The position numbers and the translations under genes are program-made. 64,000 nt of DNA, taken from assembly GCA_963930775.1 (NCBI GenBank), contig OZ005696.1, forward strand, positions 6,324,001 through 6,388,000. The letters run 5' to 3'. Every line of letters begins with the position of its first letter. Positions within the stretch are counted from its first letter, which is position 1. This stretch comes from Cliona cf. orientalis. Its lineage: Eukaryota; Porifera; Demospongiae; Clionaida; Clionaidae. The notes beneath the pieces are model-generated. The model was not told the DNA's origin. It worked only from the letters and a program-made list of their open reading frames with translations, and made no database searches. Of the stretch, positions 9,411-47,500 are shown one piece after another.

Positions 9411-9707
9411 TCACACATTTAATTTACTAAATATAAGTTCACCCTTGTCAGTTGATTTCTGTTGCACTGGTAAAAATCTAAAGATGTCAGCTTCCGAAAA
9501 TTTGCTCATACCAGTCACAAGGACTCCTCTAACTTTAGCACATTCTTCTATTGGGTAAACTGTCGGATGCCGTATTATGCTTGTTCTTCTTCTCCTTAGA
9601 ACATAATTAAGGTAGGCAGCTCCAATAATTATTGCCATTCCAGTCCAGATGATAACCGCTAGACAGTAACCGAATGATATCTCCTTCTCAAGATTGAAAG
9701 TGTTCAT
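9411..9707 (-). CDS. GELV-box membrane protein, member 1 (possibly a receptor tail)
   Basis: Frame from an internal ATG (9707) gives 98 residues. It has a short N-terminus (MNTFNLEKE), one hydrophobic span, RRRR as stop-transfer, then EECAKVRGVLV and PVQQKSTDKGELI near the end. The tail closely matches the ORF at 15019-15282. An upstream - strand frame at 9740-9920 (acceptor TTATAG) reads like the membrane-proximal end of a fibronectin-III or receptor-phosphatase ectodomain (RSYYVAIALVSG). If spliced on, this ORF would be the last exon of a larger receptor. The start is therefore uncertain. No function is known to me. Confidence 0.5.
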   Translation of the reverse strand: MNTFNLEKEISFGYCLAVIIWTGMAIIIGAAYLNYVLRRRRTSIIRHPTVYPIEECAKVRGVLVTGMSKFSEADIFRFLPVQQKSTDKGELIFSKLNV

Positions 9708-9739
9708 TAGATTTGTTGTTGCACAGTTCACCTTTCACT

Positions 9740-9920
9740 TTAAGATTTTCCTTCAGTAGCTGCTCTCCCACTAACAAGTGCTATTGCTACGTAGTATGAT
9801 CGATCTTCATTAAATAGAGCAGACACAGGAAGTGACTGTTTGCGGTGGTATACTGGTATTATTATACTTCCTGTGTCTGTCATGGCATAAGGTGCTTGCA
9901 AATTAATGTTTTGTGCCTCT
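9740..9920 (-). CDS. Possible ectodomain exon upstream of GELV-box member 1
   Basis: Open - strand frame after an acceptor-like TTATTATAG. The translation has the alternating hydrophobic pattern of the last strands of a fibronectin-III-like domain (SLPVSALFNEDRSYYVAIAL). A GTTAGT donor follows the last L. Part of the DNA is a 14-bp inverted repeat (9820-9833 and 9866-9879). Weak evidence. Confidence 0.3.
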
Positions 9921-10181
9921 ATAATAATAATCAATTATATTATCATGGTGGTCACTTATCTAATTTTGGCTTTGTGTACCACAACCACATGCCTCTTGTA
10001 ATCTAATCACGTACATCACCACTTGAAAGACTATGTACCCAGTCCTGCACCATGCAGCCACTAAAGGGGTGACCATTAAACCAAAAACATTCCCATAATT
10101 TTACTAGTTAGTACACATAGTGCAGAAAGGAGCCTCGCGCCAAGATTTATAGTAATAATATTAATTGTTAAGATTTTAAAT

Positions 10182-10548
10182 TGGGCTTTTCCATTTTATA
10201 AGCAAACACCCCCTATTGAGGAGCGAATTGTGAAAATTAATGACCCCCCAGGAACTAATTAACTCATTTTGCCCCCTAAGAATAATTAATTTGGACAGTT
10301 GAACCCCCTAAGATCAATTAAATTTATCTGAAATACCCTCTGGAAATTAATAAGTGGTTGCTTGACCCCTCCGGAATCTGCTTTTTGATAGAAAATACCC
10401 CACAAGATTAATTAAAATCGCCAAAAGAGCCCCATAAGAACCAATTAAATTGCCAAAAGGACCCTCAAGAAACTCATAAAAAAGACCCCTCAGGATGTAA
10501 TTATCACTCCTCAATGGGGGGTGTATGCCTATTAAATGGAAGAGCCCA
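10182..10548. mobile_element. MITE with ACCCCCTATTGAGGAG ends
   Basis: Terminal inverted repeats of about 40 bp start TGGGCTTTTCCATTT on the left; the right end is its imperfect complement. The interior is a degenerate tandem array of CCCC-TAAG-AATTAA units of about 30-35 bp. Clear target duplication not found. Confidence 0.65.
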
Positions 10549-11966: not shown

Positions 11967-12048
<82 letters not shown>

Positions 12049-12770: not shown

Positions 12771-12779
12771 TCAACACAT

Positions 12780-15000: not shown

Positions 15001-15018
15001 ACAGTGCACATGTATGCA

Positions 15019-15282
15019 CTAATATACAAGTTCGCCCTTGTCAGTTGATTTCTGCTGCACTGGTGGTGAAGGGAACTCACTGCTGATCACAAGTGCACCT
15101 CTCACTTTTGCACATTCTTCAGTACTGGTCATGATGTGCACATGGCCGTAGGTCTTAAAATGCTTCTTTAAAAGAATGCAGATTGCTACAATCATCATTA
15201 TTCCTATCGGGATGATGATTTTGAACGGGAAAGAGGCCTGCTCCTCCACACTGTTAATATTGTCCAGGCTGCAAGTATCCAT
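15019..15282 (-). CDS. GELV-box membrane protein, member 2
   Basis: From ATG GAT ACT TGC AGC (15282) the ORF encodes 87 residues: MDTCS N-terminus, acidic stretch, span PFKIIIPIGIMMIVAICILL, KKHFK stop-transfer, then EECAKVRGALV and [14 protein letters not shown] at the end. The DNA of the start (ATGGATACTTGCAG) is almost identical in members B and B'. A longer frame starts at 15405, but the shared MDxCS start favours 15282. Because TTGCAG is also an acceptor consensus, an exon boundary here cannot be excluded. Function unknown. Confidence 0.6.
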   Translation of the reverse strand: MDTCSLDNINSVEEQASFPFKIIIPIGIMMIVAICILLKKHFKTYGHVHIMTSTEECAKVRGALVISSEFPSPPVQQKSTDKGELVY

Positions 15283-17129: not shown

Positions 17130-17156
17130 TCACGTGAGGAATCTGCTGACTCGGCA
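17130..17156 (+). promoter_or_regulatory. Proximal mTOR promoter: TCACGTGA and MARE/ARE-like sites
   Basis: TCACGTGA (17130-17137) matches the core of the CLEAR/TFEB-MITF E-box. TGCTGACTCGGCA (17144-17156) differs by one base from the Maf recognition element and contains a TGACnnnGC antioxidant-response core. Both lie 36-62 bases before the mTOR ATG. Motifs are seen; factor binding is inference. Confidence 0.45.
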
Positions 17157-17191
17157 AACGATATATCGATAGCAGAGAACTAGAGAAAAGC

Positions 17192-17414
17192 ATGGCTCAG
17201 CAGCCATCTTTTCCCGGCTATGCTGGTCTTAGGAGTCGCGTTGACGAGGTACGACTGAAGGCCGCCAGAGATCTGCAGAGGTATGTGTCGACCGAGCTAC
17301 GAGAGCTTCCGGCTGAGCGCTACAGCAGTTCCCTGGACGATATCAACCAGACCATCTACTCCCTGATATCCAGCCAGGAGGTACACGAGAAGAAGGGAGG
17401 CATACTTGCCATAG
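17192..17414 (+). CDS. MTOR: mTOR exon 1 (residues 1-75)
   Basis: Start exon. Encodes the first HEAT helices ([19 protein letters not shown]). Donor GTGAGT at 17415, phase 1. Confidence 0.96.
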
Positions 17415-20400
17415 GTGAGTGCTCGAAGCGTTTTAAACGAGTAGGAAAGAGTGAGGGAGAAGGTGTGGCCATATTATTAAAGAAGCTGGAAACTACTTTA
17501 ATACATGTACATGTCACAAATTTATACTATAAAACCTCTAAATTATTGAGGTGACACCTAGGGGTAGACTACATGTACAGTGTAGGTGCAATCCTCGCCT
17601 AGTGTAGGGTCTTATTCCCAGATCCCATGTGCTTGTTATACTGCGCTGTGTACTCATACACAAACATTCTCCCATATAAATTCTGATTGAAACTATACAC
17701 CTAAACTCCACCCCCCTCCCCCCTGCACATACATGTACACACATTATTTTGTCATCTCAGTGAGTCTAGTTGGTCTTGAGGGTGGAGGTACGACGCGCCT
17801 GAGTCGCTATGCCCACTACCTTCGCTCCATCCTGCCCCACGCTGATGTGACCCTCACCTTGATGACGGCCAAGGCCATTGGTCAGCTGGCTCTCGCCGAG
17901 GGTACCTACACAGCAGAGTATGTAGAATTTGAGATGAAGAGAGCTCTGGAATGGATAGCCGGCAACGAGCACAAAAAACTGGCTGCTGTGAGTTTACTAG
18001 CGTACTTATATCTTTCATACCCCTGTGTGACTTCGTGTGACTTTCAATGTGTGTGTGTGTGTGTCAATTATAAATTTTCGTGATCATTACGTGTAGTTGA
18101 CTGGCTGAATATCATTTGCATTAATTGTGTGATAGTTCAACCTAAGGAATTTACTTATATTTAGACTATGGTATGCATAATATGCTTTGATCTTTTGAAT
18201 TTAATGAGGTATTTAAAATAGTGTAGATACTCAGAATGGAGTAGTTAAATTTCGTTAGAAGACCTGACATGAATTTGAATTGTATATTAAACAAAACGCA
18301 TCAAAAAGGAAGAAGATTAGGCAGAAATTGAGTTTTAATTATTGTCTGCATGATTGATGGTAAAATTTGTAGCTTTATTAAGGTTTAAATTAGCAAAAAT
18401 CTTGCTTTCTGGCAAAATTCAAATGGGGACTGAGCTGAGCCCACTGACACGCGGCACGAGTGCTAGTACTGGTGGCTCTTTTGAGCGCCATGTAGTCTCT
18501 CCTACCACTAAAAACTGTTGTGAGACGAGTCTTGCACGTGTAGAAGGGGGTGTCGCATGAGACCCGGCTGAGACAGTTGCTCCTCAGCTGCTTGAACCAT
18601 AGAATCACCTTCATTCCCAGCGCAGTCCAGATATCACAGTCAAAAGGTCCTAGAAAAATTTTCCTCTGGCTTTATAGCCAAGCTTTGGGTGTCTCGAACA
18701 GTTTAGTAGCAAATAGGAGACCATACCATGGCATACGTGGCGGTCAATAGATCTACAGAGCCACCAGCACTAGCACTACGATACACAGGCATTGCATACT
18801 GAATAACGCACATGGCTGCCTTGTTAGCTTATATACGTGAAGGAAGTGTGACATCATTGCTGCATACTTCCTGCTCTGCAACATGAATCTGATTGGTCAC
18901 TTTTCAATGCAGCACGGTTACTAAGCAACTACCCACAAAACCACGCTCACACAGCTGATTGGTAACCTAGCAACAGGATGCACTATAGCAGACCACAAAT
19001 GCACAGCGCCGCGCGCCCCATAGTCTAAGCCGGTTATCGCCCACGCCTCGGCTCTACGGCTATTAGAAACCACTCGGGATGTTGCATAATCGCCTCGGGC
19101 TCCGCCCTCGGCGATTATGCAACATCCCTCGGGTTTCTAAAACGCCGTAGAGCCTCGGCTTAGGGCAATAACCTATACTTATCTGTATTCGTAAATATAC
19201 GCCAGTGTCCCTGCCTAGCTTTGTATGTATAATATTATGTACATGTGTTCCCTAATACGGTTGAAGACATTGTTGGGAAATTTTCCATATCGTTACACAT
19301 TGTTCATTGTACATACTGTACATTGTAGGTTCTGATTCTGCGTGAGTTGGCCATCCACACCCCAACACTCTTCTACCAGCAGATACAGCAGTTCTTCGAC
19401 AACATCTTCATTGCTGTCAGAGACTCAAAGGTGAGTGGGAAATCATTATTATGCATATATAACTCTTAGAAGTTATTTAATCTGCGAAATTGTCATTGCC
19501 AGCCAATGGTTAAAATTTATGTTTTTCCACTCGTTTCAGCCGCTGATTCGTGAGCATGCAGTGTCGGCACTGAGGGCCTGCCTCAGACTGACTGCTCAGA
19601 GGGAGTCCAAGGAGGACGTAAACTCACTCAACTATCAGGTAAAGGTCGTCAGGTTTTATTAGTCTTTTTCTCTCTTCCCTCTCTCTCTCTGTTTTCTTAT
19701 CTCATTTCTTCTCTCTCTCTCTCTCTCCCCCCTTCCTCCCCCCTCTCTTTCCTTCCCTCCCTCTCTCCCTCCCTTACCTGGCCTTTTTTCCCCTGTGCAG
19801 CGGTCCTATACTGAAGCCATCAATGGTATGACGGAAGGTTCTTCCCAGCGTGACCGAGGCACTAACCTTGGTCGTGATGATCGTATCCATGGCTCTCTTC
19901 TCATTATCAATGAACTCATCATGAACAGTGCCTGGTCTGATGAGGTATGGATTCGAGCGAAAATTATTTTTTTGATGAAGTGGTCCCTCTTCTCATATCC
20001 TACCACATAATATATGACAATATTGTACTACCAATGAAATGAGCCATGGTACCTTTTTAATTCTACTGGGAGGTATATGATATGGTAAGGGTCATCAATT
20101 AAAACACCGACTCTTCGGTACATGGTCGTCAAATGAATAAGTGCTATCTCCTTGCTCTGCATGTATGCGCATGGGATGCAGGATCATTTCTGGAATAATA
20201 CCACTAAAATTGTGCACTAAATTTAATAGAGCTTCCTCCGACTTTTAATAATATTACTGTCAAATTATTATGGTATTATTGATGCTAGTTGGTGTGTACA
20301 TGTATCTTGTGTATTGCAGGCAGTTCGTCTTGAGCTTGCTGACAAGGATGAGCATGAGGACCAGACTGGGCTGGAGTCACTGATGGAGGGAGACCAGAAA

Positions 20401-23400
20401 CACCACACACAACTCCCAGGAGCAACCACAGATGGTACGCCTGAATGTACATGCACAAGCCTTAGATTGGCCTGTGTACAATTCTGCATGCAGAGCCCTA
20501 GTGCAAATATGTAAAGAGCATAATTCAAGTGACAGAAAATATGCCACTGTTCTGTGATGCTCGTGTATATGTGTTACTAAGAGAGAAGTTAAAGCAAGAA
20601 TAAAAAAACACCTTATTTTCTCTCAATTATGCACAATGTCATGTTATATTATGTGAGTATACCAAACATACCCTCTCTCTCTTGTGCTAGATGTGAAGCC
20701 GTACTTCTCTCATGGTGGTTCTACTGTTCATCGATTCCCTGGCTTTGCGCAGGGCTATGCCGGGGGTAAGAGGGTGGAGATCAAGAGCAGTCCCAGCCGA
20801 GTCTGCCGCCAGTTCATGATGAGGAACTTTGATGAAGTGTGCAAGCTGGTCCTAAAGAACAAGAACAGCCGTAACCCTCTCATCCAGCAGACTTTGCTCA
20901 CCCTCCTGCCACGCATCGCAGCTCTCAACCAAGAGCTCTTCGCACTCAAGTAAAATTTAATATTGTCATTTGTTGGTAGTTGCCTAGCAACCGAAGTTTT
21001 TATAGGCAATTTGCCGGCTATGGGAAGGGGGTGGGTCATCATAAAGTAGGCCAATGATGAACAGAGGTCAACTACCAATAAAATAGTTATCTGACAGTAA
21101 TTGGGGTACATTCGACCATGCATCTCATGCACCCCAATTACTGTCAGATGACTATTATTTGTTGTGTACACATGTATACCCTGCATGATGCATTATGTGC
21201 ACTAGATAGACAATTTATGTGAATTAATCGAACAATATACAGTAATACGTACATTATAACAGATGAAACAGAAATAAAGATTGCCATGCATGTAAATAAT
21301 ATTAATTCTTGATAGGCTCGTTCTGATAGTTAGGTAATACTTTTGCACCCTTACTTGTGCTATTTTACACTATGCACTTGTGATATTTTATGTATCCTAT
21401 GTACATGATGAGCCTAATGTTCCCCCCCCCTCCCTTCTCCCCCTTAGCTACCTGAGTGATGGAGTTGGTTACCTGCTCCACTGCCTGAAGAGAGAGAAGG
21501 AGCGGCCGGTGGCATTCAGAGCCATGGGGCAGATGGTCTATGTCCTCAAGGACAGGATGGACCTTGACCCGGTACTCAGCACCATCAAGAACAACCTACC
21601 CACTGGCAGAGAAGTCGTCGGAAAGTAAGAGAACACATAGTATTATAGTTATAATATTGATGAGAGGGGGGAGCTGGAGTATCTCCCCTAAAAGGAGGCT
21701 GTTGGAAAGCAAGGGAGCATAAATTTGGGAGGCGGGGGCGGGGGCGGGGGTGAGGGAGCTGGAATATCTCCCCTTAACATCTTAAGTGTAATAATAATGC
21801 CAACTAACTTAAAGCGTGATCACAAACTATAAAGAGGCTTCCCTATCGCCTCGTTTTTGGTCAAAATGCCGTCGTAAATAATATTGCTAATTTTTTCTGG
21901 GGAGGTCATTTCCTTAGATTCGCGAAGAGAAATGGACTATTGTTATTTGATCATATTGAATCATGCCCCCCCCTCCCTCCCTCCCTCCCTCCCTCCCTCC
22001 CTCCCAACTAGTAATCCTGTATGAAACCTGTGTGAAGAGAGAAAAATTAATGGAAAATTTACAGTGTGGGTGATAGTTTGATACAAATGTCTACATAAGG
22101 CCAGACAAATTTAATAAGTTGTTGCATGGATTTGCTCGCTCCAATTTTTGGGCAAACAAAAGAAAAAAAAATTAATTAAGTTGGGTGGAGCTTATGTACA
22201 GTTGAGTGGTTTTTGTATTCTATCTTGATTCCCTGGTCCTAGGATAGTCAGATTAGTCTGTCTTAATTAGATCGTGGTCCATAACCACACCCTAATTGAT
22301 TGCTTTTTTTTTTCTTTTTTTTTCGATTGCTCGGTCCAATTTTTACTTCACAATATCCGAGCAACAACAAATTAAATTGGTCTGGCCTAATTATAATATT
22401 ATTATGATTATGGAGCTACATGTACTTTGGCTCCTGTATAACTAAGTTAGTTCTTCGTGGATGAAAAAACACTTAAAGTATTATTGTAGTCTTCGCCCCC
22501 CCCCCCCTTAGCTCTGCAATTGTTGCATTTGTTCCATCCTAAATGAAATCCACAGTATATGTAAAAGTAACAAGTATTAATCGTAGTGCCATTACTCCAG
22601 AAAGACGTGTGTGCGTGTGTGTGTGTGCATATAGTGCTTATTGTGCCAAGTGTCAGGGTAGTGGTACAAAGGTACCAGTGATCGTGAGGCGGATCCATCT
22701 TAGTGATATGTTTAAAATGGTATATAACATAATAATTATGCATGTACATGTACATGTAATTAGTCCATTAATGCCAGGGAGGAGGGAAGTGTGGAAAACC
22801 ATGTTTTCTACTAGGGTCATAGTCTACTAATCAATCTATGGTATAAAACCAGAGCGGATTGAGAGCCGGGAAGTGGGAAGTGGAGAGATGAAAGGTAGCT
22901 GATAGCTGAATAATTGGATTGTCTCCATGAGGTCCACTCAACTCAAGGGGATAATCAGTCTGGCAGACTGTAGAGGCATGATGCTGAGTAGAGTATTATT
23001 GAGTTATCTATCAGTTTGGCAATTTAACCATAATGTTTATGCATTCCTAAGATTTGTAAGTAGCACAGGATGTGCAACTGCCAAGGATGCAGTATACATG
23101 TAATTAAATTTTCAATAGAAGATTGAGAGGAAAAACACTTTGACCTAGGAAAGTAGGAATAGGAATAGATGATGGTAGATAATAATGATAACTAGATAAT
23201 CAGATTTGTTATTGAGAATGTGAGGTCCTTTCAACTTGAGAGGGTGAATCACTGAGACAGGAAGATGCATCACAAAACAATAATAATATTATTTATATTA
23301 TTATAATTTTAGTCTAGTAGCCGGATTAAAGGATATTTGTAGCATTCCTAAAGGGGGAGGTGGGATGATACGTAAGATTTTAGATAGGAGATAGCACAAT

Positions 23401-26400
23401 AATGACCTTGTATGTGCATGCATGACATGCGTATATGTGTGTGTCTGTATGCACACCAGTACGATCCTTCAACCACAAGCTCCGAGAAGTACTATATCTG
23501 CCAGTTGCGCTGATGACCCCTTTAATTGAATAAATTAATTAGCAGCTAGTACAATAATTTATTTCTATTAACACAGCCATCCACTTATGCACCTATAGTA
23601 CATTTCTAAAGGCTGCCACTTAACTAAAAGTTAATCATGAGGTGTTGCCAATGTATTGTGTGAAGTGCTGAAGGTTGTTGAAAGATGTGTATGCATTGAT
23701 GATTACGTGTGCATATGTACAACCAGAGAGTTACTGCAGACCTTGAAATTTTTTTCTGATAAATGCAGGGTGTGGTTGGAAGAAAAGTTTATCAATCCCT
23801 ACAAAAAATTGTGTTTGAGCTGAATTTGGCAAACTACGTAATGTAATATTTATGAAATTCTTAGGCTATATAGTGCCTGTTACATGTAGATAATTTCACA
23901 TGTACATGCATGGGGCCATGAATTGTTGGCTATCAAAATATACGGTTCATTCATGATCATAGTCAAATATTACATTTGTAAATGTACTGACGAGGCCCAG
24001 CTTGGCTGAAACTGCTGTCTGTAGTTGCACTTTTGGTACTTGCATACTTTTTTGAAGTTTCAAAGTTTGAAGTGTTTAGAATGGTATGTTGCATGTAAGT
24101 CCATTTATGCCAGGAAGGAGGAAAACCATGCTTTCTATTAGGGTCAGAGTCTACTAATCAACCTGTAGCATTTATAGTTCAGAGAGGATGTTGGGAAGTG
24201 GAGAGCTAGAGACCAAAGGTGGCTGCAAGAGTAGATTAGGATAGGTAGCTTATAGCTGGGATAATTAGGTAATTGGATTGTCTCAACTCAAGGAGGATAA
24301 CCATGCTGTCTGGCAGACATGGCAACAGGAAAGTGCTTAACAACAGGTAGTCTGCCAAACAGTAATGTTTATGCATTCCTGAGATCTGTAGCACATGTAA
24401 TTATAATTATAGAAGATTGAGAAGAAAAGCACATGACCTACAAAGGTTAGGGATTGGAATAGATATTTGTAGGATCGCAGCTAATTAGATAATCAGATTT
24501 GTTATAATTGAGAACGTGACCACTCAACTTGAGAGGGTAAATCACTGCCCCAGAGGCAGGAAGATGCATCACAAATAATAGCAATAATAATAATAGTTAG
24601 TACTAGTGTGATCGATAGAAGGATGTTTATGTCGTTCCTAGAGGGGCAGGTGGATCGATGCATGTTCGTTGGTCCTTGTGAACGTTGGCTGGTGAAGGGA
24701 AGTGGGACAAAGGTTGACTCAGAGTGTGTGCATGGGTGCATTACACGAAATTGGATTTTCAGCATTGGAACAAGAGGAAGTATAATGGGTACTATATACC
24801 TTAACCTTCTTTCAACTTTAAATTTTGTGAAAATATAAAATGCTGACAGTGCAGGGAGGGTGGGATGATATGTACATGTATGTACTTCCACTAAAGGTTT
24901 CAGACAGGAGATACCAAATACATGAAATTTAATTTTGCTAGATAAAAATTTCACCAAGTCAGGTTTGTAGATACATGTAGTTATCCCTAGAATCTAAGGT
25001 GGAGCGGTGCACATGCCCTTATGCTGAATCTGCCTACACGTATGCTGATGAGGACCAATTTAGCTGAAATAGCTGTCTGCAGTTGTACCTCCGTACTTTT
25101 TGAAGTTTCATGTCCAGCGCTAGCCATGCATACATATACATGTACATGTGTATGTATATGTACATGTGACTACTCATGCATGTACGTTAATTTAGTTTAC
25201 TTTGCTTTCTCTTGTGTACAGGCGAGCCTCTCGCACTAACATCACTCAGGATTCATCAGTGTTCATCTGCATCAGCATGTTGGCACGCGCAGTGGGTCCC
25301 CAGGTAGAGAAGGACATCAAAGCTCTACTCGATCAGATGTTCAGCGTCGGACTCAGCTTGGATTTGACCTCTGCCCTCCGCGTCATTGCTCAGGAGGTGC
25401 CCCAGCTGCAGAGGGACATACAAGGTCAGTGGTTTGTACATACGTAATTTAAGTGTAGGATCTACATGTGTACATGCATGTACATGTATGTATAATATAT
25501 GTGTACGCATGATCAATGAATGAAGGAACCCTCTTTATGTGTAGTGGTCCTTTAAAGTGAGTACATGTACATATATTATTTTAATACTATGTACATGTAC
25601 CAAGGTATATACCATGCAAGACATGCATGTATTCACCAGTGAAAGTATCTGCAGTATCATATACACTGTACATGTATGTACTCTGCTTGCAACTAAGCAC
25701 TTCAGAGCCACTAATTGTTTACTCTACAATTGACCAGCAAAGCAGGGTACACTGTAAAAGAGAGGAAAAGTTGGAATAAACCAACACCACCTGCAGATTC
25801 TAACCTCAGTGGTTGGATAATACTAAATAGGTCTCCAACTGGGACACTAGTCTAAGAGCTAGCAGACTGTGGTAGTAATTTTACAGGTACTAACCTCAGT
25901 GGTTGCCTTGATAGGTCTCCAATTGAGTTATAGCTGATAGCAGACTGTGGTAGTGGGTGGAGCTCATGTCCATAGTTCCTTCCCAGATTAGGAGTACACC
26001 AACCTGCCCTCCCACTGGCCACTGGGCTATGCTAGCTATGCATATATAGTGCTGGTGATGTTGTTGATAATAATTCCTCCATCTCTGATCTGTGAGAGAG
26101 ACACTTGCTTGGCTCCACCTGTACAATTCACTTGGTGCCTTCAAGTCTGGGACTAACCTGCTGAGCTCCTCCTTTGGGGTCCCCTTAGGTTTGTTAGTCC
26201 AGTTAATTTTAGTCTTATCATTATCTTTGTGTGCAATAGTGAGGGTGCTTTTGTGCCCCAGATGGAGACACTTGGCTTTACAGTGTTTATGCTAATACAA
26301 GATCTAAGGTAGGGCAGGAAAAATTAATCGTGGTTTAGGACCTTTCATAATGGAGTGTGACACCTTCACCAGAAAATTACGTGGAAGTATTTAGCTTAAA

Positions 26401-26474
26401 TCCATTCTATTAGAATTAAATTAAATTAAGAATTGTGTATAAATTTGAAATTTTTTATGACACCCTCTCCCTCA

Positions 26475-26562
<88 letters not shown>

Positions 26563-32500: not shown

Positions 32501-35500
32501 TCTACTTTTGCAGATCTCCTTCACAGGACTTTTCAGCAACTTTGGTGGGAATCCATTTCTCCCCTCCTGCAAACATTTGCAGCTTGCAACTGCAAAGCTG
32601 ATGATGGCTGCAGCCAGTAGAGATAGAAGCACTCCAGTCAGTGCTGTTAGCAGTGACAACTGCTGCCCCAAGTGGTCCAGTGTAGCTGCCATGCTGCAAG
32701 GATCCATAGCTATGTATACTCACAGAGCAATTTTTGTTCACTTGGCAAGTTTGTCTGAGACAGTGCTCTGATCTGCCAGCTGTTTTTATGCCTGTAGATC
32801 ACATCCTGTTTAGGAATTAAATTTATAGGTGAAGTCCCCTTGTGGTCCACATTTCAATTTTGATGGCTTCAGCACATTTTTCACATGCAGCCACTGCCAC
32901 AATATAAGAGGAATAGAGGGCACTAATTATTAATAATATTCACAGCTCAAGCACATTCCATGAGCTCATGAGCTGTAAATATTATTACTGCACTATTCTT
33001 TTTTGTTGCAAAATGGCATTGCACATGACATATATTATGTTGGCTTATAATGCACTCAACTAATATTATAGTATATGATCTTAATTTCCTTGTGATCATA
33101 TTATGTAAGCAGTCTATTGTGATCTGTCATAGTCCTTAGGTGTCTTGTGAGGATAGCATTTTTATTGCTACTTGGGTATTTCCATGTGTAGTAAGTCCCA
33201 TTTTATTGCTGCTTGTGTATTACTAGTATTATGTTTAGTGATTGGTATCTATAGATATGTAGTAAGTTACGTATTTGATCCCACTATGTATGCAGTATGT
33301 ATAGTTATTCATTTGTCTTGTGCTGTATCATCGTCTATGGATCAGCTATGATCATTGCACCGTAAATCTGGAAATTTTCGTTGTAAAAATATTTTCGTAG
33401 TCAGTGGCGGCTACGAAAATTAATCTTACAAAAATTAGTATGCACTATTACGCTAATGTGGTAAGGGGTCGTTCCTACGAAAATATTTTTACATGAAAAT
33501 TTATCATACAAAAGTTTCTGTACACGAAAATTTCCAGATCTACGGTATATTTTGATAATTATTATGAGGGTATGTGTACTTTCAGTCACATCAAGTAGTC
33601 TAGACCAGATGCACATTATGCACTGCTTGCATATAATATTATGGCACGAGAGCTGCATGGAGAGCTGCATGTCTAGAGTAATACATGCCTGTATGCCACG
33701 CTCACCTAGTGCTACCTTACCTATTTTTTTTGCGGGTACGTATTTCTGCGGATTGGCCCAATTTTTTAGCTATACATGTACTATAATATGCACTATAATT
33801 ACCGTAGTGTCCTGGGCAAGCACCCACTCCCGGGTAAACACCCATGTACCTCATTTCAAGGGGTCGATGTAGCAGCTTCTTAGCATCTATATTATAGTAT
33901 AATTGAGTTTCCAGACTACAGGATATGCATATATATATGTATGAATAGCTTTCGATTCTGCTACAGCTAGTATACAGTCCCTAAATCCATGCTCTCCATG
34001 AGTGACGACTGCAAAAGTCGTGGCACTGCTATACATTTAGTGGGCCATGCCATTGGACTATGGCACGAGCATACGCGACCTGATAGAGGCAGTTACGTTG
34101 AAGTTCTGTATGAGAATATCAACGAGACAGATTGGGCCAAGTTTGGAAAGATTGGTCAGGAACAGTTTAACCTCGTGCCAGATGTTGGCTATGATGTGTA
34201 GAGGGTCATGCACTACAGTCCGGATGATTTCACAAAGAATGGCGGAGAGACTCTCTTTCAATGGGTCAATGTAGCAGCTTCTTTACAAATGTATGGAAAT
34301 TATATCCCGGGTAATTAGTACCCATGCGGGCCAAAATCACTATGCATGTTTAAACACTATGGTAATAGAATTGTCGACCCTGTAGTATTTCTTGCTAATT
34401 AAATCAAAATTTTGGCAGATATATGTGCAAATAGTTATCATCTAAGGTGCATATGCATGGAGCCTTATTAATTGTTTGACAACACTTACATATTTTATTA
34501 TTACAAGCTTGAGTGTATCCAATCGAGGTAGCTCTTGATATACCTGGGTGTGGTCAGTAGGTGTGGCCAAAACAAAAGCATGATTTATAATGTACGTTCT
34601 CTAATCTATAGAAGTAAGTTGCAAAATGGTTGTTTATTGTACATATATACCGTATCCTCCCGAAAATAAGCCCCCCCTTTTTCAGCAGTAGACATGACCT
34701 AGACTGGGGAGGGGGCTTATTTTCGAATATGCACTTTCCCTCGAATATAAGCCCCCCTTAGCCACCATCGTTGGTCACGTACCGCGGGAAATATCTAGAG
34801 TTTGCTTGTCTTTTCTCCAAAAAAGCGGCAACACGAGGATCAGCGGTAGTAAAATATGGAAAAGGACTTGTTGTTCCGTGTGTGTACGTCTTTAGAGGAA
34901 AGTAAAAGCATCTTGACCGGCTCGTAAGTGTCTTCGCCAAGCTAGAAGTGCCATCATAATAGAATGACTTCAAAACAGGCTTTTCTAAAAGCCAGCACCA
35001 TCTTTGTACTCGTAGTCAATTGAAGGGCGGGGTTACGTACGTACGTACGTGCTCGCGCGCGTGTATATTATTTGCAGTCTATCTACTTGGTGGGAGGGGG
35101 GCTTATAATCGAGGCAAACATACCTGTGCAAGAACTTGAAGGTCAAAGAGGGGAGGGGGCTTATTTTCGAAGGGGGCTTATTTTCGGGAGGATACGGTAC
35201 ATGTATAGCTGACGCTTTTGGATGAACTATTGCAATTAATATACTGCCAAAAGCACATACACCTCCCTTCACTTTTAGCTCAAGTTCCTACATAGATAGT
35301 TCTGTCTTGTGTATATATAAGCTGACTGGAGAATGTAGATACTGTATGGCGGGTAATTTTCGTGGGGTCTAATTTTCGTGGAAAGTCCGAAAAGACCCTC
35401 AAAAATAATTTTTGTGGTTTAAATTTCGTGACAGCAACCAGTCTAGGGGCGTGGCACTGCTGCACAAGCGATGATGTAATCGATACACGCGCTCGCGATC

Positions 35501-38500
35501 TTCTTTGTTACTAAGCCATACCTACAGAGACTTGGACAAAAGGCATGAGATAGAAGAATATTAGTGTCGAAGATGCTATCAGCTGGCTACTGTTGCTTGC
35601 TAACACTGGACAGTATTGGCCGCACTGCCACGAAGTTTATGGCCACGCCCATCATCATGGACTCGCATAATACCATATCACCGTAGGCATTAATTTTCGT
35701 GGGTGGGAAAATTTCGTGACTGCCAAGTCAACCACGAAAACAGACAGCCAGAGCTTGAGATCATGCGCCCAGGATGCGTTTGACGGTCGGTAATGGTCGT
35801 CACATGGAAATGTAATGATCCTGTGTATAAACCCCCTCCCCCAATATTAGCATGAAGGCGAGATTCTATGGTAATAATTATTTCATCAAATTTTCCAATG
35901 TACGGTTGTGATACGTAATTAAGATACTTGTTATATATATACAATGAAAAATATTTTTCAGAGCGACAATTTTCTTATATAGTCCGTGTCCTAACCTGGA
36001 GGGCATAAAAGATGCGCTCTCCTACAAGTTCAGAAGACTCACAATTGGTCAGAATTGTTGTGCCGTGTGCACAAACGAGGTTGCCAGGGCCTAGGATGCA
36101 TTCTCGAGCTCGAGCGAGCGGCGCAAGTGCCGCGCGTTTCGACAGGCCTGCTCGGCAGGCTGCCGAGCCTCGAGCGAAGCGAGAGGCGATGTCTGCTCTT
36201 TGTCATGGTCTGGTAATAGATTCGACGTTCGAACGGAGTGAGAACGTCACCATTACATGGTGAGTTTGATCAGCTACTCTTGGCCTGCATTGAGGGGTAC
36301 GTGTGGTCTTCATCTGCGCATGCGCGATGTACGAACTGGCACTGAATTGTACTATAGCATGCTGTTAGTAGTGTTCAATCACATTATCCCATGATTGTGA
36401 CATCAAACATACTTGTATACATCAACAGATGATATTCAGAACTAATAATAATAATAATATAATATTATTATACGCAAGTTATTGGTGTCAGTTTACATGG
36501 CACACACTGTTTATATACATACATGAATCAGCAGTGGTGTACTACATCACAATAGATGAAGAAACTACTGACTATGATAAACATTGACATCACTCAAAGC
36601 ATAAAATTAATAGTCTTAGACTAGTATGACAACTATTTAATACTGTTTAAAAACACACATGCATGCATGTATATAACTGTTCACCTGCTAGAAGGTTAGG
36701 ATACTACCAATTCACCTTCGTCTTCCACTGGCACTATCTGCATTGGCATGGTGGTTGTGATGCTAGTACAGTACTTGACCAGCTCTCTTGAGACATCTGA
36801 CTGCACTGCATGACTGCTAGCGCTGGTGGGACCAATTCTCCTCTCTCTCTGCCCCTTTCTTCCATGGGGCTTTTTAGTGACTCTATCGTTTTCTCTCGTT
36901 TTTCTAGCCTTATTTTGCAACCTATAACTGCAGCAACTGCAAGTGCAACAATCGCAGCAATCAGTAGTGTAGTAAGTAGAGCAGCAAGCAGTGCTAGTGA
37001 TGGCTTCTCATCCAGGCTGCATAGTGTAGCTGCTGCAACTTCCATACTGCAAGTATCCATCGTCTGTCTGCATGCATTCATCAGAAGGGAATATATTAGT
37101 TGTCAGCTTGTTATGTATGAATTTGCTCTCTCTATTGCACTGACTGAGGAAGCTGTGTTTTTATGCCCCTGCACTATCACTAAGCCACTTCCTGGTGGAT
37201 TTAGGTGAAGTCCCCATTGCACAAAAGAACACATAATATTATGAATAATTATGGTTTATAGTTTACTCCCTAGTGTTCCTTGTATGGCAGCCAGTTGGGG
37301 GATAGGGATTTAGTGTTCATTATCCCTCGCCTACGCTGTAGTAATGAATGTAGTGTGCTGAACTGTCTAGTATTGTTGAAAACATATACATGTATGAAAT
37401 GCTGAGAGTATGATGTGTCATAATGAGGGGCGATTGCGTACGCTTGTCCATCATGGCAGACTTATATGTCCAACCTTGGAGCCATTGTGTGGGGTTTGTC
37501 TGAGTACGTAACTACCGGTATCTACTATTTTACCATGTTTTCCAACACTGACGTTTCTGTACTAGTAATAATAGTACCATAATTATTTCCCGGTCAACTG
37601 TGAGCTTGTCCATGTCTTGCTGGTGTCTTTGTATTCATGTGTTTTGCTAATTAGGTTGCCGTTATTGGACTACCCTTCTTAAATTAACTACCATATCTGT
37701 TTTGATTACTCACAATAATTGTCATGCATGCGTGCTAATAGCAGTTAATGTTCTTGGCTCCTGTACATGCAATGCCAAATATGTAATTATGTTATGATCG
37801 AGTTACAGGGCATATTTTGTGGAGATTTCACATATGGAAATCTTTGTATCATATGTACTTGATATACTTTATTAACCCTCGGTGCATGCGCGAGGGTTAC
37901 GGTAGTTGGTTTGTCTGTCTGTCTGCTACCATGCTAGCTGCTACATACCTCGTTTGCGAGTCCAATTTTCGATGTTGTAAGGCTCCTTATGGCGTTCCAA
38001 ATGCATGATTTGTATGGATTTCTCTGAAAACGCTTTGTTCGCCAGTTTTGGCGTCATTTGCCGATTCTAAGCTTCTTGACTTTGCCCGAGCTAGCGATAG
38101 CATCACTTAACGTATAAATAGGTTGCGCGCTATATACGGTATGTACGCCTATTAACACTCAGCGCATGCGCGGTTGCATCAATCCCTCCGCCAGTCCACT
38201 GGCAAACTTTTGACAATCGTGGGATGACAGTGGCTTCTTTTCAACTCCAAGGCTTAGCTGCCTGTATTCTTGTGGTACCCTTGGACTCTCTGGCTTGTAT
38301 GCATGCATGGCATTTAATACAGTGCTTGAACCCAAGTGAGTTGCGATAATATTGGACATGCAATATTTCTCAGTGTACTTCAGTCTTGTGCCAAGGCCCA
38401 AGAATTGGAGGTTAGGCTACAGTGAGGGAAGTTGAGTTGATGTCGACACCACAGTATGGACTTCGATACAACACACTAGGGTTATTGCTGCTTTGTGGGC

Positions 38501-41500
38501 CATTGAACCTTGAATAACACTGCTGTGCAAGTATAACATTAGCCTCATCCCTGTCTCGCCCCAGCCCCAGCCCCAGCCCTTTAGCTACCCCCTTTTTTGC
38601 GTGCAACTGTTGAAGCATGTAGCTAATGCCATGCAACGCACCGAGGGTTTTGTGCTCGAGAGAGCTCTAGATATAAACAGTGGCCTTTCCCTCATTATGT
38701 GGTCACGCAAAGGAAGGATACTTTGGAGTTAAGAAAGTATCTATGCATGCATATGTGTTTGCATATGACCAGAAGTTGGACAGAGAGAGAGAGAGAGAGA
38801 TCTATCCTCCTTGAATAAAGCAATAGTTATCACAACATCTCAAACATGATACCCAGCTGTGGCGGCATGGCAACAAATCAATTCCCATTACATGCTGCAT
38901 TGATCGTAACTGAACCACCAGGAAGTGCATACTACAGCCATGCAAGGGAACTACCTTTTCCAACAAAAGATACACTTATTGGTCTTCAGGGGGGGGGGGG
39001 GCTTCATGTAATAATGTGATTAATCCAAGTTGGAAGTGGCCTATTCTCTTACCATGCAAATGTTTCATAACGCAATGAATTTCCAATTGACAAATGGTCG
39101 ACACTTGTTGGACATAATATTATTTAATGGGTAAGCCTTAATCCATGTCCCTCACTTGTAGTGCTACCTTAATTATTTTTTGCGAGGTACTAAAGTTTGA
39201 TATTTCTGTGGATTTTCCCAATTTTTTACCCACAAATGCATGCTTTATATGCCCACATCTTATTATTTGCTGTAGTAAATAAACTACAATGAGAGTTTCT
39301 AGAGCTATTAAGGAGCGCTCTACATATCCCGAGTAGCCCAGACCCTTTATTACAAAGGGTCTGGGCTACTCCGGATGTTACAAAGGGTCTGGGCTATATA
39401 CTCTGGATGTTACAAAGGGTCTGGGCTACTCCGGATGTTACAAAGGGTCTGGGCTATATACTCTGGATGTTACAAAGGGTCTGGGCTACTCCGGATGTTG
39501 CAAAGGGGCTCTGGATGTTACAAAGGGTCTGGGCTACTCTGGATGTTACAAAGGGTCTGGGCTACTCCGGATGTTGCAAAGGGGCTCTGGATGTTACAAA
39601 GGGTCTGGGCTACTCTGGATATGTAGCCCAGACCCTTTGTTACAAAGTTTATATGTCAAGCCTATGGGCATTGTTGCTAGGGTCTAAAGTTGTTAGACAT
39701 TGTTTAGTCGGTTTCTGTGTGATTTAGAAGACCTCCTAAAGAGTGTCTATTATCTGTATGGCAAGAATTAAACTACTCTTAGCACTAAAATAATATTAAT
39801 ATTCACAATCTGTGTACATGTATATATAATTATATTATTATAATATTATAATACCATTTATCTATTTGGCAGTTGGGTAGCAATGTCGCATAATATGCTT
39901 TAGCATGTACTGTTCATACAATAAATTAATCTAGTTATTACATTACATCAGATTCCATAGGGCACATAGCTCTTTGAATTAATCCCTTGGAGCTTTACAT
40001 CACTACTCGAGTATATGGCACTCTAGCCCATATATTAGCTATTATTGCAAGCTATACACACAAATAACATGTATACTCATAACCAGGAAAGGCTTTGGAG
40101 GACATGCACAATGATAGTGACAACTGAAAACAATGCTATGATGTGATAACTAATGTAGTTACATAATATGTATCAATAAAACTTGTAGTTTCATGCTTTA
40201 CATTATGAGTGAGTGCACAGTAATATCACTCACCATTGATTCATTCTGCCAGCCCATAATATTAGCTACAATACCAATATCACCTTTTCCACCTGTGTAC
40301 ATACAAAAATAATTTTCACCAGCAGAAAATTTCGTCGATTTTGCCACCCACTCTCAATAGTTCATTATTATTATTATTATACTCATATTTTGCCCTACAT
40401 GTATGTTAAAGATTACGTAGAGGATATGGTGACCTTTACTGCATGATGTGATGGTGCATGGAATGCGCATGCGTGCGGCATGCTGACATCAGAGGGTGAG
40501 ACTGACATACGGAAATGAAAGTAAGATTATGACAGAAAAAAGAGGGCAGAAACAGACAGCTACTGTTTCTGATCAGGGAGCAGTATATAAGTGGAAGAGA
40601 TAGTATATAGGTTGTGCACCATCACAAGTTATCTCTTAATATTAACCCCAGTTTCATTTTTATTTCTCCCATTCCCTGATGATGATGCTTGAATGAGCGT
40701 CAAAACGTTGGAATAATAATTCTTCTGTTGAATTGCCACGGCTAGCGCTGTTTTAAATCATGTCGTCGGATAACTGTTCACCTACAATGTAGCCACACAG
40801 GACTATACAAGATTATATACATAATATTATTATGGTGAAAGGAAAGTTTGCTGCATCCTTTGGGCATTACATATTATTGTACAACGATCAATATAGCCCA
40901 TCATATCACTGTGCTTAGCTTTCCGACTCATGGGTTAATCTTGCTGTTACACAAACAGATGATAGTCAACGTGTGCGTGAACAAGGGTGCAACTCCCGGT
41001 ACAATTAGTGCCTCAGGCGATGTACGCACGTACATAGGTATGTATAATAGCTTTTCCGTACAAACTAACATGCAGAAAATTTTTAGAAACAAGCTAACTA
41101 CCAAGTAGTTAATGTAGCAGCTTCCATATACATTAATTTTAATAAATGTGTACATGTACATGTATATATACATGTAGTACCATCTTGATTCCCCCATTTC
41201 CAGTTATTTGTAACGTTATACATTGCATTATTAGACTATCATAACTTAAGGATTCTATACAGTGGTAGTTCATATCGACCAATGAATATATACTAAGCCT
41301 ATGCAAACTTTACTGACCAGGCAAGTGGCTATTATAATAGTGTGAGCAGTGAGGGGCCCACAGGTGACAATTAAGATAGGAAACTTATCTCTAGAACTGT
41401 TACAATTCAGATTCTAAGCCAAGCAAGACAATAGCTAACTACATGTTAATGCTACGTATGTGACGCATTTGTGGTACCAATTTTTCTAGCATAGGATGTG

Positions 41501-44500
41501 ATTGACCATCCCTTACCACATTAATTATGCCGGGTTTGTGCCTACCTTAAAATTAGATGTGCATTTAATAGTACAACTAATAGTACGCCTCATTCTCAGC
41601 ATCATCATAACATTATAATAATAATAGTTAGCAAGTTAATTAGTTATTCAGTTCCTGTTCACTTTCGGGAGCATTACGCATGTGCATATATGAGCATGAT
41701 TTAGCACAAGATAGCTATGCACCCCTTCTTCTTTGTACACCTTTCTAAAGCATGGGCTCTTACCTGAGAGTGGGTGCTTGCCCGGGATGCTATGATATTC
41801 GGATATTTGGGTATTTGTTATGGCCTTTCTACCTGAGCTTAATTACAGTGCATTATTTGTGCTTGACTCTCTCATTCTACTGGGTGCCCAACCGATGTAC
41901 ATGTACATGTGTACACTTCGCATTCAAAAACATTGACCATGCTTAGTTTAATAACAGATGTTCAAAGAATTATGCAGCAGATGGCATTCAAAATTATGTA
42001 CATGTAACAATAAAATCCTGAACAGTGAGTGAGTGAAGTTTGTATGATGTCACACTTGCATAATGCAATTGCACAAAGTCTTTTAGAACAGGCACACTTG
42101 AATGTAACTAATAATTTTTACATGTACCATGCAGTGACTTGAACGGTCAGAACAAAAAAAAAAAAACTACGTTGAAATCATGAGAAAGCTGACACTATAC
42201 AAAAAAACGTACTGCACCTGCTGCAAGTTTAGGAGACCACTAGTTCACCTTTGTCCGTGGACTGTGACTGCACTGGTGTGATGGTGGTTATGCAGCTAGC
42301 GGCTAGGTTGCTCAGCTCTCCTGGCACGTGGGTTCTGGTGCTTCTGCTGTGAAGGACTAGCTCTCCTCCACTTTTGCAGATCTCCTTCACAGGACTTTTC
42401 AGCAACTTTGGTGGGAATCCATTTCTCCCCTCCTGCAAACATTTGCAGCTTGCAACTGCAAAGCTGATGGTGGCTGCAGCCAGTAGAGATAGAAGCACTC
42501 CAGTCAGTGCTGTTAGCAGTGACAATTGCTGCTCCAAGTGGTCCAGTGTAGCTGCCATGCTGCAAGAGTCCATAGCTATGTATACTCACAGAGCAATTTT
42601 TGTTCACTTGATATGCTACAAGTCTGACTGAGACAATGCTCTGATGTGCTAGCTATTTTTATGCCTGTAGATCACATCCTGTTTGGAAGGTGAAGTCCCC
42701 TTGTGGTCCACATTTCAATTTTGATGGTTCAGCACAATTTCACATGCACTGCCACAATAAAAGAGGAATAAAGGGCAGTAATAATATTCACAGCTCAAGC
42801 ACATTCCATGAGCTGTGAATATTATTACTGCACTCCAGTCTTTTTTGTTGCAAAATAGCATTGCACATGACATAATATGTTGGCTTGCAATGCACTCTTA
42901 ACTAATATTATGACTGTGTGATCTTAATTTCCTTGTGATCACATTATGTAAGCAGTCTATTGTGATCTGTCATAGTTATGTCCTTAAGTGTCTTGTGAGG
43001 ATAGCATAGCATTTTTATTGCTACTTGGGTATTTCCATGTTTAGTAAGTCCCATTTTATTGCTGCTTATGTATTGCTAGTATGTGTTTGTTGGTTGATGT
43101 CTATGGAGTAAGTTACAATAATCGCCAGCTACTTTGGTCACCTGACCACTTAATATTTAAGCTACACCTTCATACCTCGAGCTGTCCACCCCACATGGTA
43201 TATCCACTGCATACGTTGAGTCCTGAATCTGCTGTGTTAGGTGATAGTGGGCTGTGGTTAAACTGATATTGCCATGAGAGGTCCTCTAACCTTAGCCAAA
43301 GAGGGCCTTGTAGATACATATTCCATGTTTGATAAATCCCATTTTATTGCTGCTTGTGTATTGCAAGTATGTGTTTATTGATTGGTGTCTATGAAGCGAT
43401 TGGTGAGTCCTATTTATTATACTATATACAGCGAAAATCTTTTTCAGAGCGACAATTTTCTTGTATTATAGTCCGTGTCCTAACCTGGAGGGTACAAAAG
43501 ATGCGCTCTGCTGCAAGTTCAGAAGGCCCACGATTGGTCAGAATTGCAGTGCACAAACAAGGGTGGCCATATAGAGATACATTCTCGAATGAATGGCACG
43601 AAGCGCCGCGTATTTCAAGAGGCCTGCTCAACATGCAGGCCATGTGCCACAAAGCCTTGAGCGAAGCGAGGGATGAGGTCTGCTCTTTATCATAGTGTGG
43701 TGGTAGATTCGACGTTCGAGCAGAGCAAGAACGTTGCCATTACAGTGATGAGTACAAGCAGCAACTATTGACCTGCATCGAAGGGTGTGGTCTACGAAGT
43801 AATAGGTTCAAAGTTCGTGCTGCTGCATGTGCACTGTACTAACGGTTGACATACAGCTAGGGAGATGATGCTGTTCAGATTTTCTCTGAGTATGTGAGCT
43901 TAATACTGTGAGTCATAATATTATCCATGATTGTGACATCACACAATGTCATACTTGTATGCAATTTAATTAAATTTTTGACAACTTTTGAGATTGATAT
44001 TTCATGACATTAATAATATAGCTATGGCACCTGTCCGAGCTACACTAAATTTGTACCTGTGTGCTTCCTGGACACAATCCACTCATGCTAAAACTAACTT
44101 ATATGTACATCTTTCCAAGAGTGAGAATGCATGTGCTCAATGTAAACCAGTCAATGATAATAAATGTGATCAATTGCAAATAGGGACAATTGTAAGTCTT
44201 AGAATATAATATTATCAATGAATATGCCCATATCCAAGGGCGTATCTACCATTGAGGCAACCGAGGCAGCTGCCTCGGTCATCAGTTCAGCCAGCTATTA
44301 TACTAAAATACACACCAACACTCACCGTGCCGCGTGCATGCCATGACAAATTTGTTTGCTGACTAAGCACTCAAACTTTTACTATGGCAGAAGTTATAGC
44401 TCTGATCTCTAAGAGAGCTAGACAGATGTTTCTCTCTGTGATGATATAAGTAATGTCATATGACCTTGACAAAACGGCTTTGTGCACCGTTCTAGACTCA

Positions 44501-47500
44501 AGAAGACTTTCTATGTTATTACGATCGTGGTAGACACCCGAAAATGGGCGTGGTTTGACCCCTAAGGGGCGTGGCTAAAAATTCGCACGCAATCTTTATC
44601 TGCCTCAGTATAAAAAAAATTTCTAGCTACGCCCTTGATATCTATATAGCTAGTATCTTTAATTGTCTCCTCCAGCAGAAATGGCTATAAGAACTGCATG
44701 CATGCATGTAAAGCTTTCAATAATCTGCAGCTGATGTACATGTATAATAATAATGCTTTCTTTACATACCACAATATCATAGGAGTTTTATCCATGGCAG
44801 CTACTTGATCAATTCCTAGATCATTATAATTATTAGCTTGAGCTGATTGAAGTGATCCTTGCTTTCAATCACCTTTCCCAATCCTGCATGCATAAGCAAT
44901 TACTGTAATTGGTATACTGTAAATCGTGAATATACTGTAAATCGTGAACCCTTTGGACAGCCTGGTTTGTGCAAAAATTAAATGCGTGAAAATACATACG
45001 TAATATTTATGATAACGCAGTACAGGGTTGTTTGTCCGAAAATATTTAACGTGAAAAATTATTGCACAAAATATTTTAGACACGAAATATTCACAATTTA
45101 CGGTACATAATATGCTTCAGTTGTTATTAATTAATATAATTAGGTATTGCTTTTTTCCAGATTTAGCTATTATTAACATTTAGTGACTAATCGAGTTATG
45201 CTTGAGAGATTATAACAGCAAACACAATATTGATTACTTCCTAATAAGAAATTCGGTACTGATCATAGATTGTACCAATAATATATCTCATGTCCTTATT
45301 GGTGTTTCAATAGTGAGATCACTTATCATTTAAGAGGTTACATAAACAAGCAGAATAATGGGCTTAAATCCTACAGGAAGTGGTGTACTGACAACACACA
45401 AATATTCTTATAATGGCAGGTATCTCTAGCTCATTTGACACACCACGTATTAATGTTTTATTGCCGTATATGGTCTTGTGGTCAGTCTGCCACACTTGTT
45501 GTGTAACAACTTTTTGATAACAATATCGTGTACCAGTATGTATGCAATATGTATTTTTGTTTATTTGTCTTGCACTGTGTCATCATCTATGGATCAGCTA
45601 TCATTGTACATTATGATAATATTATGAGGGTGTGTGTACTTTCAGTCACATCAAGTACAGACCAGATGTGCATTATGTACTGCTTGCATCATAGAGTTGA
45701 GCTTGATATTTCTGCTGATTCGCCCAATTTTTTATCCACAAATATTAGCTATACATGTACTATATACATTGTAATCAATAGAATTGGCGACCCTGTAAAA
45801 TTTCTTGCAAATTGAATCAAAATTTTGGCAAATATATGTGTAAATAGTTATCACCTATGGTGCATGTACATGCACATATGGAGCCTTATTAATTGTTTGA
45901 CCAATACTTACATATTATAAGCTCAAGTGTACCCAATCGAGGCAGCTCTTGGTATACCTGGGTGTGGTCAATAGGCATGGCCAAAACAAAAGTATGACTT
46001 ATAGTGTATGTGGGTCACCCCTTCCCTGACTGCAAAATGTAGATATCAGAACCCATAAACAGTAGCTACAGCTAGCAAACTAGCTGTTTTGTGTCATATT
46101 ATGCCTTACTTTGTCGATTTTCTCGAGTTTTACCCATCAAACAGCCGCACCCACGAGGTATTTGATGGTCAGTAATGGTCGTCACACAGAAATGTAAGGA
46201 TCCCGCATATAAGCCCCCTTCCCACTTTTTGCCCAATGCTAGCATGCACAGGGGGGGTCGTAATCATGGGATTCTATGATAATAATTAATTCATCAATTT
46301 TATAATGCATATTTATTAAGATATTATACATCAGCAGATGATATTCAGAACTAAATTATTGATGTCAGTTTACATAGTACACACTGTTTATATGCATACA
46401 TGAATTGGCAGTGGTGTGTACTACATCTCCACAATAGATAAAGAAACTACTGACTATGATAATCATTGAAAACGGTCAAAGCATAAAATTAATAGTATGA
46501 CAATAATCATAAATTATGAACAACTATTTAATACTGTTTAAAAACATACATGCACATGTATAACTGTTCACCTGATACAATGTTAGGATACTACCAATTC
46601 ACCTTCGTCATCCACTGACACTATCTGCGTTGGCATGGTGGTTGTGATGCTAGTACAGTACTTGACCAGCTCTCTTGAGACGTCTGACTGTACTGCATCA
46701 CTGCTAGCGCTGGTGGGACCAGTTCTCCTCTCTCTGTGCATTTTTCTTCCATGGGGCTTACTAGTGACTCCGTCTTGTTCTCTCGTTTTTCTAGCCTTAT
46801 TTTGCAACCTATAACTGTAGCAACTGCAAGTGCAATGAAGACCACAATCAGTAGCGCAGTAAGTATAGCAGCAAGCAGTGATGGCTTCTCATCCAGGCTG
46901 CATAGTGTAGCTGCTGCAACTTCCATACTGCAAGTATCCATCGCCTGTCTGCATTCATCAGAAGGGAATATCATTTGTTAGCTTGTTATGTATGCAATTG
47001 CTCTTTCTGCTGCACTGACTGATTCAGTAGTGGAAGCTGTACTTTTATGCTCCGGCCTGCACTATCACGAAGCCACTTCCTGTGGATTTAGGTGAAGTCC
47101 CCATTGCATAAAGGAATACATGACTGGGGTATGAATAATTATGGCTTATAGTTTACTCCCTAGTGTTCCTTTTTATGGCAGCCAGTTGGGGGATAGGTTC
47201 ATTGTTCTTCGCCTACACTGTAGTAATGAATGCAGTGTGCTGAACTGTCTAGTATTGTTGAAATAATATAATATTATCTGAGAGTATGATGTGTCATAAT
47301 GAGGGACTAATGTGTACGCTTGTCCATAGTGGCAGACTTTTATTATTATTTGGGGCGAGCCTAAGTGAGCCCCACATAAACAGTACAGCTGTGCGTGAAT
47401 TGTATATATATAATATTATATAATATGGTATGTCGGTCACACAAAATATATGCCCAGCGGTTAGTAGCTCAGTGACTAATATTACCGTAGAATCCCGCAA

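Follow-up and report, generated by a model that had tools for sequence, protein, structure and literature searches.

A family of small single-span membrane proteins with a conserved terminal tail box, at and beyond the mTOR locus of a sponge

Six short minus-strand open reading frames lie around and inside the mTOR gene of the sponge Cliona cf. orientalis, and they raise the question of whether they belong to one family of membrane proteins and, if so, what their tails might do. The window analysed here is a stretch of 64,000 nucleotides (contig OZ005696.1, positions 6,324,001 to 6,388,000, called C8 below), and its six ORFs are labelled A, A', B, B', C and E in Table 1. An earlier note on this DNA had ascribed one plan to all six, and most of that description was borne out: all six translate at the coordinates tabulated, to 87 to 114 amino acids, five of the six start with MDxCS, a single hydrophobic span is found in every one (best 19-residue Kyte-Doolittle mean 2.12-3.16), and, in line with the basic stop-transfer that had been described, net charge is more positive past the span than ahead of it in all six. 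When three relatives on contig C16 (L017, L018 and L019) are counted as well, 9/9 ORFs have a net charge past the span equal to or above the one ahead of it, the equal case being L018 (0/0).

The tails follow the description less closely. A D-[K/E]-G-E-L-[V/I] ending is present in A, A', C and E; in B and B' the box lies in another frame. Two or three boxes per tail can be counted only loosely, as the first box reads RGALV in C and RGVLV in E, and B and B' have one box each. Internal boxes are present in the C8 proteins and in a further copy on contig C17 (RGALV) and absent from the three C16 proteins. The general shared element is the single terminal box, not the internal boxes.

Table 1. Features of the window and their coordinates
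Feature	Position	Strand	Description
A	32363..32707	-	114 aa; MDPCSM start, span, in-frame terminal box
A'	42229..42573	-	tandem-duplicate partner of A; terminal box intact
B	36734..37060	-	108 aa; intact span; ERGELV as internal box; frameshift removes the terminal box
B'	46621..46941	-	duplicate partner of B; frameshift as in B
C	15019..15282	-	87 aa; RGALV box and terminal box; upstream of mTOR
E	9411..9707	-	98 aa; without MDxCS start; terminal box PVQQKSTDKGELI, then six residues
A upstream	32708..32839	-	GGGGACTTCACC at -132, CAGGATG, CATAAAA at -83 from ATG
A' upstream	42574..42700	-	GGGGACTTCACC at -127, CAGGATG, CATAAAA at -90
B upstream	37061..37215	-	GGGGACTTCACC at -155, CAGGAAGTG, CATAAAA at -105
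B' upstream	46942..47102	-	GGGGACTTCACC at -161, CAGGAAGTG, CATAAAA at -108
Out-of-frame tail of B	36699..36794	-	VSREL...DEGELVVS; homologous to A tail
Out-of-frame tail of B'	46586..46681	-	arranged as in B
Part of mTOR gene	17150..63335	+	exons matched in PDB; start at 17150 read by eye

The placement of the ORFs relative to mTOR was examined by matching exons to PDB sequences, which located exons at 28472-28780 (E 7.5e-15), 49611-49844 (E 9.7e-36) and 62880-63335 (E 5.2e-20). The six had been placed around and inside mTOR; the inside position holds for A, B, A' and B', which lie between the first two of these exons, and C and E lie upstream of the putative start, all six being antisense. 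Some 35 residues of mTOR that belong between those two exons could not be placed, and the DNA between them may accordingly hold one intron or two. The ORF at 17150, taken by eye as the putative mTOR N-terminus, had no Pfam match. Because an exon near the C16 copies (C16:6116707) matches KNTC1, nesting in mTOR is not a trait of the family. An Astacin metalloprotease fragment is also found between mTOR exons (33971-34198, plus strand; Pfam E 1.1e-17); at what we take to be its zinc site, HExxH, the glutamate reads L, and the fragment therefore looks inactive.

We searched the genome (216.8 Mb, 149 contigs) and found that the family comprises at least ten loci, namely the six in the window, the C16 three and a damaged one on C17 (L021), and that it is not confined to the mTOR locus. 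With C as genome query the C17 copy was recovered (73% identity over 77 residues) along with a weak match on C16; with an E of 0.6 for this C16 relative, the family is recognisable by one tail motif though the remainder has drifted so far that pairwise search almost fails. Scanning the genome with a DNA pattern that encodes T-D-x-G-E-L-[V/I] gave 13 matches, and its reversed form gave 0. Eight of the 13 belong to the family (E, C, A, A', the three on C16 and the one on C17), and the other five are a kinase-like ORF (by eye) present in two copies, two related 22-residue ORFs and one other; B and B' are not matched by this pattern. The C16 proteins start with M[EK]NCN, have one span and end in [ST]PVQ..STDDGELVI. 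A profile built from A, A', C and E only was run against 6041 ORFs of at least 25 residues from stretches of C8, C16 and C17, and it recovered the C17 copy (E 1.6e-22), B' (5.8e-9), B (4.6e-8) and the three C16 members (1.7e-6 to 4.4e-4), the best E being 0.12 when the same 6041 ORFs were reversed as a control. Profile-profile comparison of the same four C8 proteins with the three from C16 gave a probability of 95.5 and an E of 1.5e-8. We conclude that these ORFs form a family, and a genuine one, with likeness beyond chance, is well supported by the sequence comparisons.

Searches with A, L018, B', E, the tail of A and the C17 fragment yielded no extra family locus in the genome. The 27-residue tail-only query recovered just A and A', which indicates that short queries under-detect, and ten loci is thus a lower bound. 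The C17 copy (C17:6946551-6946955, minus strand) reads GEFV where others have GELV, and it looks damaged; it has an N-terminal insertion bounded, by eye, by inverted GGCCACTCCAATATGATT repeats. The C16 members are 31 and 42 kb apart and align over only about 400-600 bases. Similar large ORFs recur on the minus strand of the region C16 6030001-6140000 at 6031874, 6070044 and 6108236, ~38 kb apart, which suggests segmental repeats around these members.

Seven members carry the terminal box in frame (A, A', C, E and L017-L019, with close copies among them, namely A/A' and the trio from C16), with the consensus PVQ-x-x-STD-[KD]-GEL-[VI] at 0-6 residues from the C-terminus. The conserved block is 13 residues long, and within it PVQ and STD vary as little as GEL does. 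Codon positions 1 and 2 are variable at 6/26 sites in the 13-codon box versus 107/122 in the remaining aligned protein (P 1.3e-10, a value inflated by the choice of box columns for looking conserved), and third positions are variable at 11/13 sites in the box versus 52/61 elsewhere (P 1.0). Since the first two positions are nearly frozen and third positions are as variable inside the box as outside it, the box is conserved at the protein level; variable third positions inside it would be hard to explain by DNA-level conservation or by recent copying. The proposal that selection acts on the tail motif, and not on the span, stands for the terminal box; internal boxes are lacking in the C16 proteins. 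Closeness to the C-terminus in all seven members might also suggest a C-terminal PDZ ligand, but such a ligand needs a conserved hydrophobic last residue, and the final residue here is S, Y, V or I, so that we regard this reading as most improbable.

The window also contains two pairs of close duplicates. Amino-acid identity is 94% for A/A' and 84% for B/B', and since the DNA aligns in two blocks (31799-33270 with 41678-43116, and 36476-37467 with 46353-47343) at offsets of ~9.88 kb, the A-B unit was duplicated in tandem. Substitutions between A and A' number 11/345 in the coding sequence versus 101/1042 in their own flanks (P 5e-5), and 0 indels fall in the 345 coding bases versus 25 events in the flanks, where 7.3 would have been expected in coding DNA (P 7e-4). 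The coding DNA of this pair has clearly changed less than the sequence on either side of it. The A/A' dN/dS comparison that the earlier note had proposed gave a Nei-Gojobori ratio of 0.57 (4 synonymous and 7 nonsynonymous changes), which is compatible with 1, yet the coding DNA is constrained relative to the flanks. In B/B' the substitutions are 26/321 coding versus 74/639 outside (P 0.12), and there is one indel, in-frame, versus 5.6 expected (P 0.024). The ratio was 0.79 for B/B' and 1.38, 0.92 and 0.56 for the C16 pairs; no single dN/dS value demonstrates purifying selection, and those from C16 allow that evolution outside the box may be relaxed or fast.

B and B' have lost the terminal box from their reading frame, the spacing from first box to tail being 35 bases in both versus 27 in A and A'. 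The two ORFs end in [C/R]-R, and the shifted tail reads VSRELVKYC...DEGELVVS. As both copies carry the shift, it most simply predates their duplication. Between B and B' the shifted tail differs at 3/96 bases, all nonsynonymous in the shifted frame, and in the ORF frame the final 26 codons have 1 synonymous and 3 nonsynonymous changes, so that clear selection is evident in neither frame. By-eye inspection for a programmed frameshift or a tiny intron that would restore the terminal box found nothing convincing. A second long open frame on the minus strand overlaps each of these ORFs (36696-37007, 103 codons, and 46583-46888, 101 codons) and ends in DEGELVVS.

These observations bear on whether the ORFs could be functionless, that is, decayed or chance frames or fragments of mobile elements whose conservation reflects recent duplication. 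The weak constraint on B/B', their shared frameshift, the uniformly nonsynonymous changes in their shifted tails, the interruption of the C17 copy and dN/dS near 1 in several pairs speak for such decay. Against it, old copies share the terminal motif although its third positions are no less variable than those outside it, the coding DNA of A/A' is under constraint, and B/B' show fewer indels than expected. There was also no sign of a repeat or transposon, as seven protein queries and one pattern found only ten loci, a lower bound, in 217 Mb. Decay suits B, B' and the C17 copy better than it suits A, A', C, E or the C16 members, and as an account of the whole family we consider it very unlikely.

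Upstream of the ORFs, A, A', B and B' share one order of elements: an exact GGGGACTTCACC (-127 to -161), then CAGGAWG, then CATAAAA (-83 to -108). TATA-like sites are present ahead of most members examined, those of L017, L018, L019 and E lying at -89, -118, -77 and -109 from the ATG; C has no TATA-like site within 400 bases upstream. A and A' have just four in-frame codons ahead of the ATG, and this, together with the TATA-like sites 77-118 bases before the ATG in A, A', B, B' and L017-L019, means that a larger multi-exon gene is not favoured. The frame upstream of C is open for 59 codons and, with no TATA-like site, C may have a further exon. A putative hairpin with arms ATTCACAGCTCA at -247 and TGAGCTGTGAAT at -224 from the A' ATG (42573) is complete only at A'; upstream of A only the right arm was matched exactly.

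The GGGGACTTCACC probe was derived from A, A', B and B', which are two pairs of duplicates, and the other members serve as outside tests. Mismatches to it number one upstream of L017 (shuffle P 0.002), two for L019 (P 0.029), three for L018 (P 0.144), three for C (P 0.149) and four, on the other strand, for E (P 0.676); a related element in C, E and L018 is, on these counts, not convincing. By consensus, GGGGACTTCACC resembles a kappaB site, with departures, and CAGGAWG an ETS core. In another sponge, Amphimedon, NF-kappaB is described as an active, regulated factor (PMC13042239).

One reading that would make use of such a promoter is that PVQ-x-x-STD binds a TRAF-like or other cytosolic adaptor, the proteins being small inducible signalling scaffolds and the kappaB-like element closing a feedback loop. 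PVQ and STD are as unchanging as GEL in the seven in-frame tails, and PVQ contains the PxQ core of TRAF1/2/3/5 motifs, for which PMC6125299 gives the consensus forms PxQE, PxQxxD and PxQxT; a PVQ or PxQ core is likewise what the tails of CD40, LMP1 and TANK have in common with the family. Against this, TRAF-binding tails require E at +1, T at position +2 or D at position +3, which 7/7 in-frame family tails lack, and by the definitions in PMC6125299 the three forms occur in 0/7. The promoter element is exact ahead of A, A', B and B' and one mismatch away ahead of one C16 member, but it departs from the kappaB consensus and is unconvincing in C, E and L018. We regard a signalling role of this kind as unlikely.

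The earlier note knew of no described family of this type, and database searches agree, with no Pfam, NCBIfam or PDB-sequence match at cut-off. Seven family proteins gave two Pfam matches far below cut-off (E 0.05 and 0.17), nine gave no NCBIfam match at cut-off (one at E 0.058), and the family profile had none among PDB sequences at E 1; no account of such a family was found in the titles and abstract starts of open-licence papers. The family is undescribed in Pfam, NCBIfam and PDB sequences. A viral or bacterial origin was considered and set aside, as no relative was found in the viral or prokaryote contig collections: 16 pattern stretches in viral contigs searched with the tail alignment and 492 stretches in prokaryote genome contigs searched with protein A (a search for close relatives only) gave 0 confirmed in each case. 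An AlphaFold model places residues 3-51 in a helix, whose span part is confident, and gives the tail a block-mean pLDDT of 46-52; at an overall mean of 61.2 the model was too weak to support a fold search. The tail is thus predicted to be disordered, as expected of a linear-motif tail.

We tentatively favour, as quite possible, a reading in which the proteins are small adaptors for membrane trafficking, whose tail carries a variant acidic-dileucine motif comparable to the ExxxLV of HIV-1 Vpu. The docking or adaptor role suggested earlier is again one that we infer, now narrowed to sorting by clathrin adaptors. The family would consist of small one-span proteins (85-114 aa), apparently single-exon, oriented N-out and C-in by the positive-inside rule. 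Their probably disordered cytoplasmic tail would end in PVQ-x-x-STD-[KD]-GEL-[VI], with no more than six residues after it, and the D-[KD]-G-E-L-[VI] part of this box may act as a variant acidic-dileucine signal ([DE]xxxL[L/I/V]) for the sigma subunits of clathrin adaptors such as AP-1 and AP-2. The divergent span would pair with a client protein in the membrane; the tail would route the complex to endosomes or lysosomes, or recycle it.

A [DE]xxxL[V/I] motif lies past the span in 9/9 ORFs examined, the C17 copy having been left out. In B and B' the [DE]xxxLV is the internal ERGELV; in A, C and E the internal box has no acidic residue and the terminal box has one. Strict [DE]xxxL[L/I] occurs in the tail of E only (DKGELI), and the V variant in A, A', C and the three C16 members. 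In membrane proteins, acidic-dileucine motifs sit nearly always on the cytosolic face and often close to the termini (ELM; PMC8728146). The family resembles ELM TRG_DiLeu in having an acidic residue four before L and a hydrophobic residue next, near the C-terminus of a likely cytosolic tail; it differs in having V instead of L/I in 6/7 in-frame terminal boxes and in a conserved block that reaches further upstream.

HIV-1 Vpu is a small, single-span protein. Its ExxxLV is a working variant for both AP-1 and AP-2, assisted by upstream phosphoserines and by contact of the span with tetherin (PMC4552633). The proposed likeness lies in a cytoplasmic ExxxLV tail, AP-1/AP-2, span contact with a client and acidic or phospho-acceptor residues upstream of the motif (Vpu features from PMC4552633). 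Vpu is nevertheless offered as an analogue of mechanism, and no sequence kinship is claimed; the present family consists of animal genes with their own TATA-like sites. The adaptor chains DAP10 and DAP12 also combine a tiny ectodomain with a cysteine (found in 8/9 family ORFs), one span and a docking tail, but by eye the family spans show no acidic residue and the tails no tyrosine-based motif.

Several points count against sorting. The [DE]xxxL[LIV] motif is short and would often be met by chance, the conservation of PVQ and STD goes beyond what a dileucine signal would need, and dN/dS, as estimated here, is not clearly below 1. The restriction of the strict form to the tail of E, the equal charges on either side of the L018 span, and the insertion and GEFV of the C17 copy weigh the same way. 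A 13-residue block exceeding the needs of either known motif would better suit binding to some other cytosolic partner, which the proteins would tether to the membrane through an uncatalogued linear motif. That account names no partner, and the position of the box, the likely topology and [DE]xxxLV fit a sorting signal; we think it somewhat unlikely, while keeping it in view.

If the sorting reading were true, the family would be a host-encoded case, in an early-branching animal, of the small-adaptor strategy of viral Vpu. In its widest form, which strikes us as speculative and rather improbable, this would be an animal family of small inducible trafficking adaptors in which a drifting span selects clients and a frozen D-x-G-E-L-V tail passes them on to clathrin adaptors, a host-encoded counterpart of Vpu with copies antisense between mTOR exons. 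Gene annotation readily overlooks small membrane proteins that have a single exon. The terminal motif provides a ready profile for other animal proteomes and a simple cell test.

The window has some further features. At ~3400-5640 on the minus strand, ORFs resemble, by eye, an RRM/RGG RNA-binding protein gene, and the ORF at 3407-4012 in this region had no Pfam match. Inverted repeat arms of 98 and 74 nt, 84% and 92% complementary, lie within 15871-16997, between C and the mTOR start. Short repeats that have TATA-like cores are also dispersed here and fall into two families, the first at 35978-36063, 43467-43552 and 50828-50913 and the second at 35764-35847, 46146-46229 and 47734-47817.
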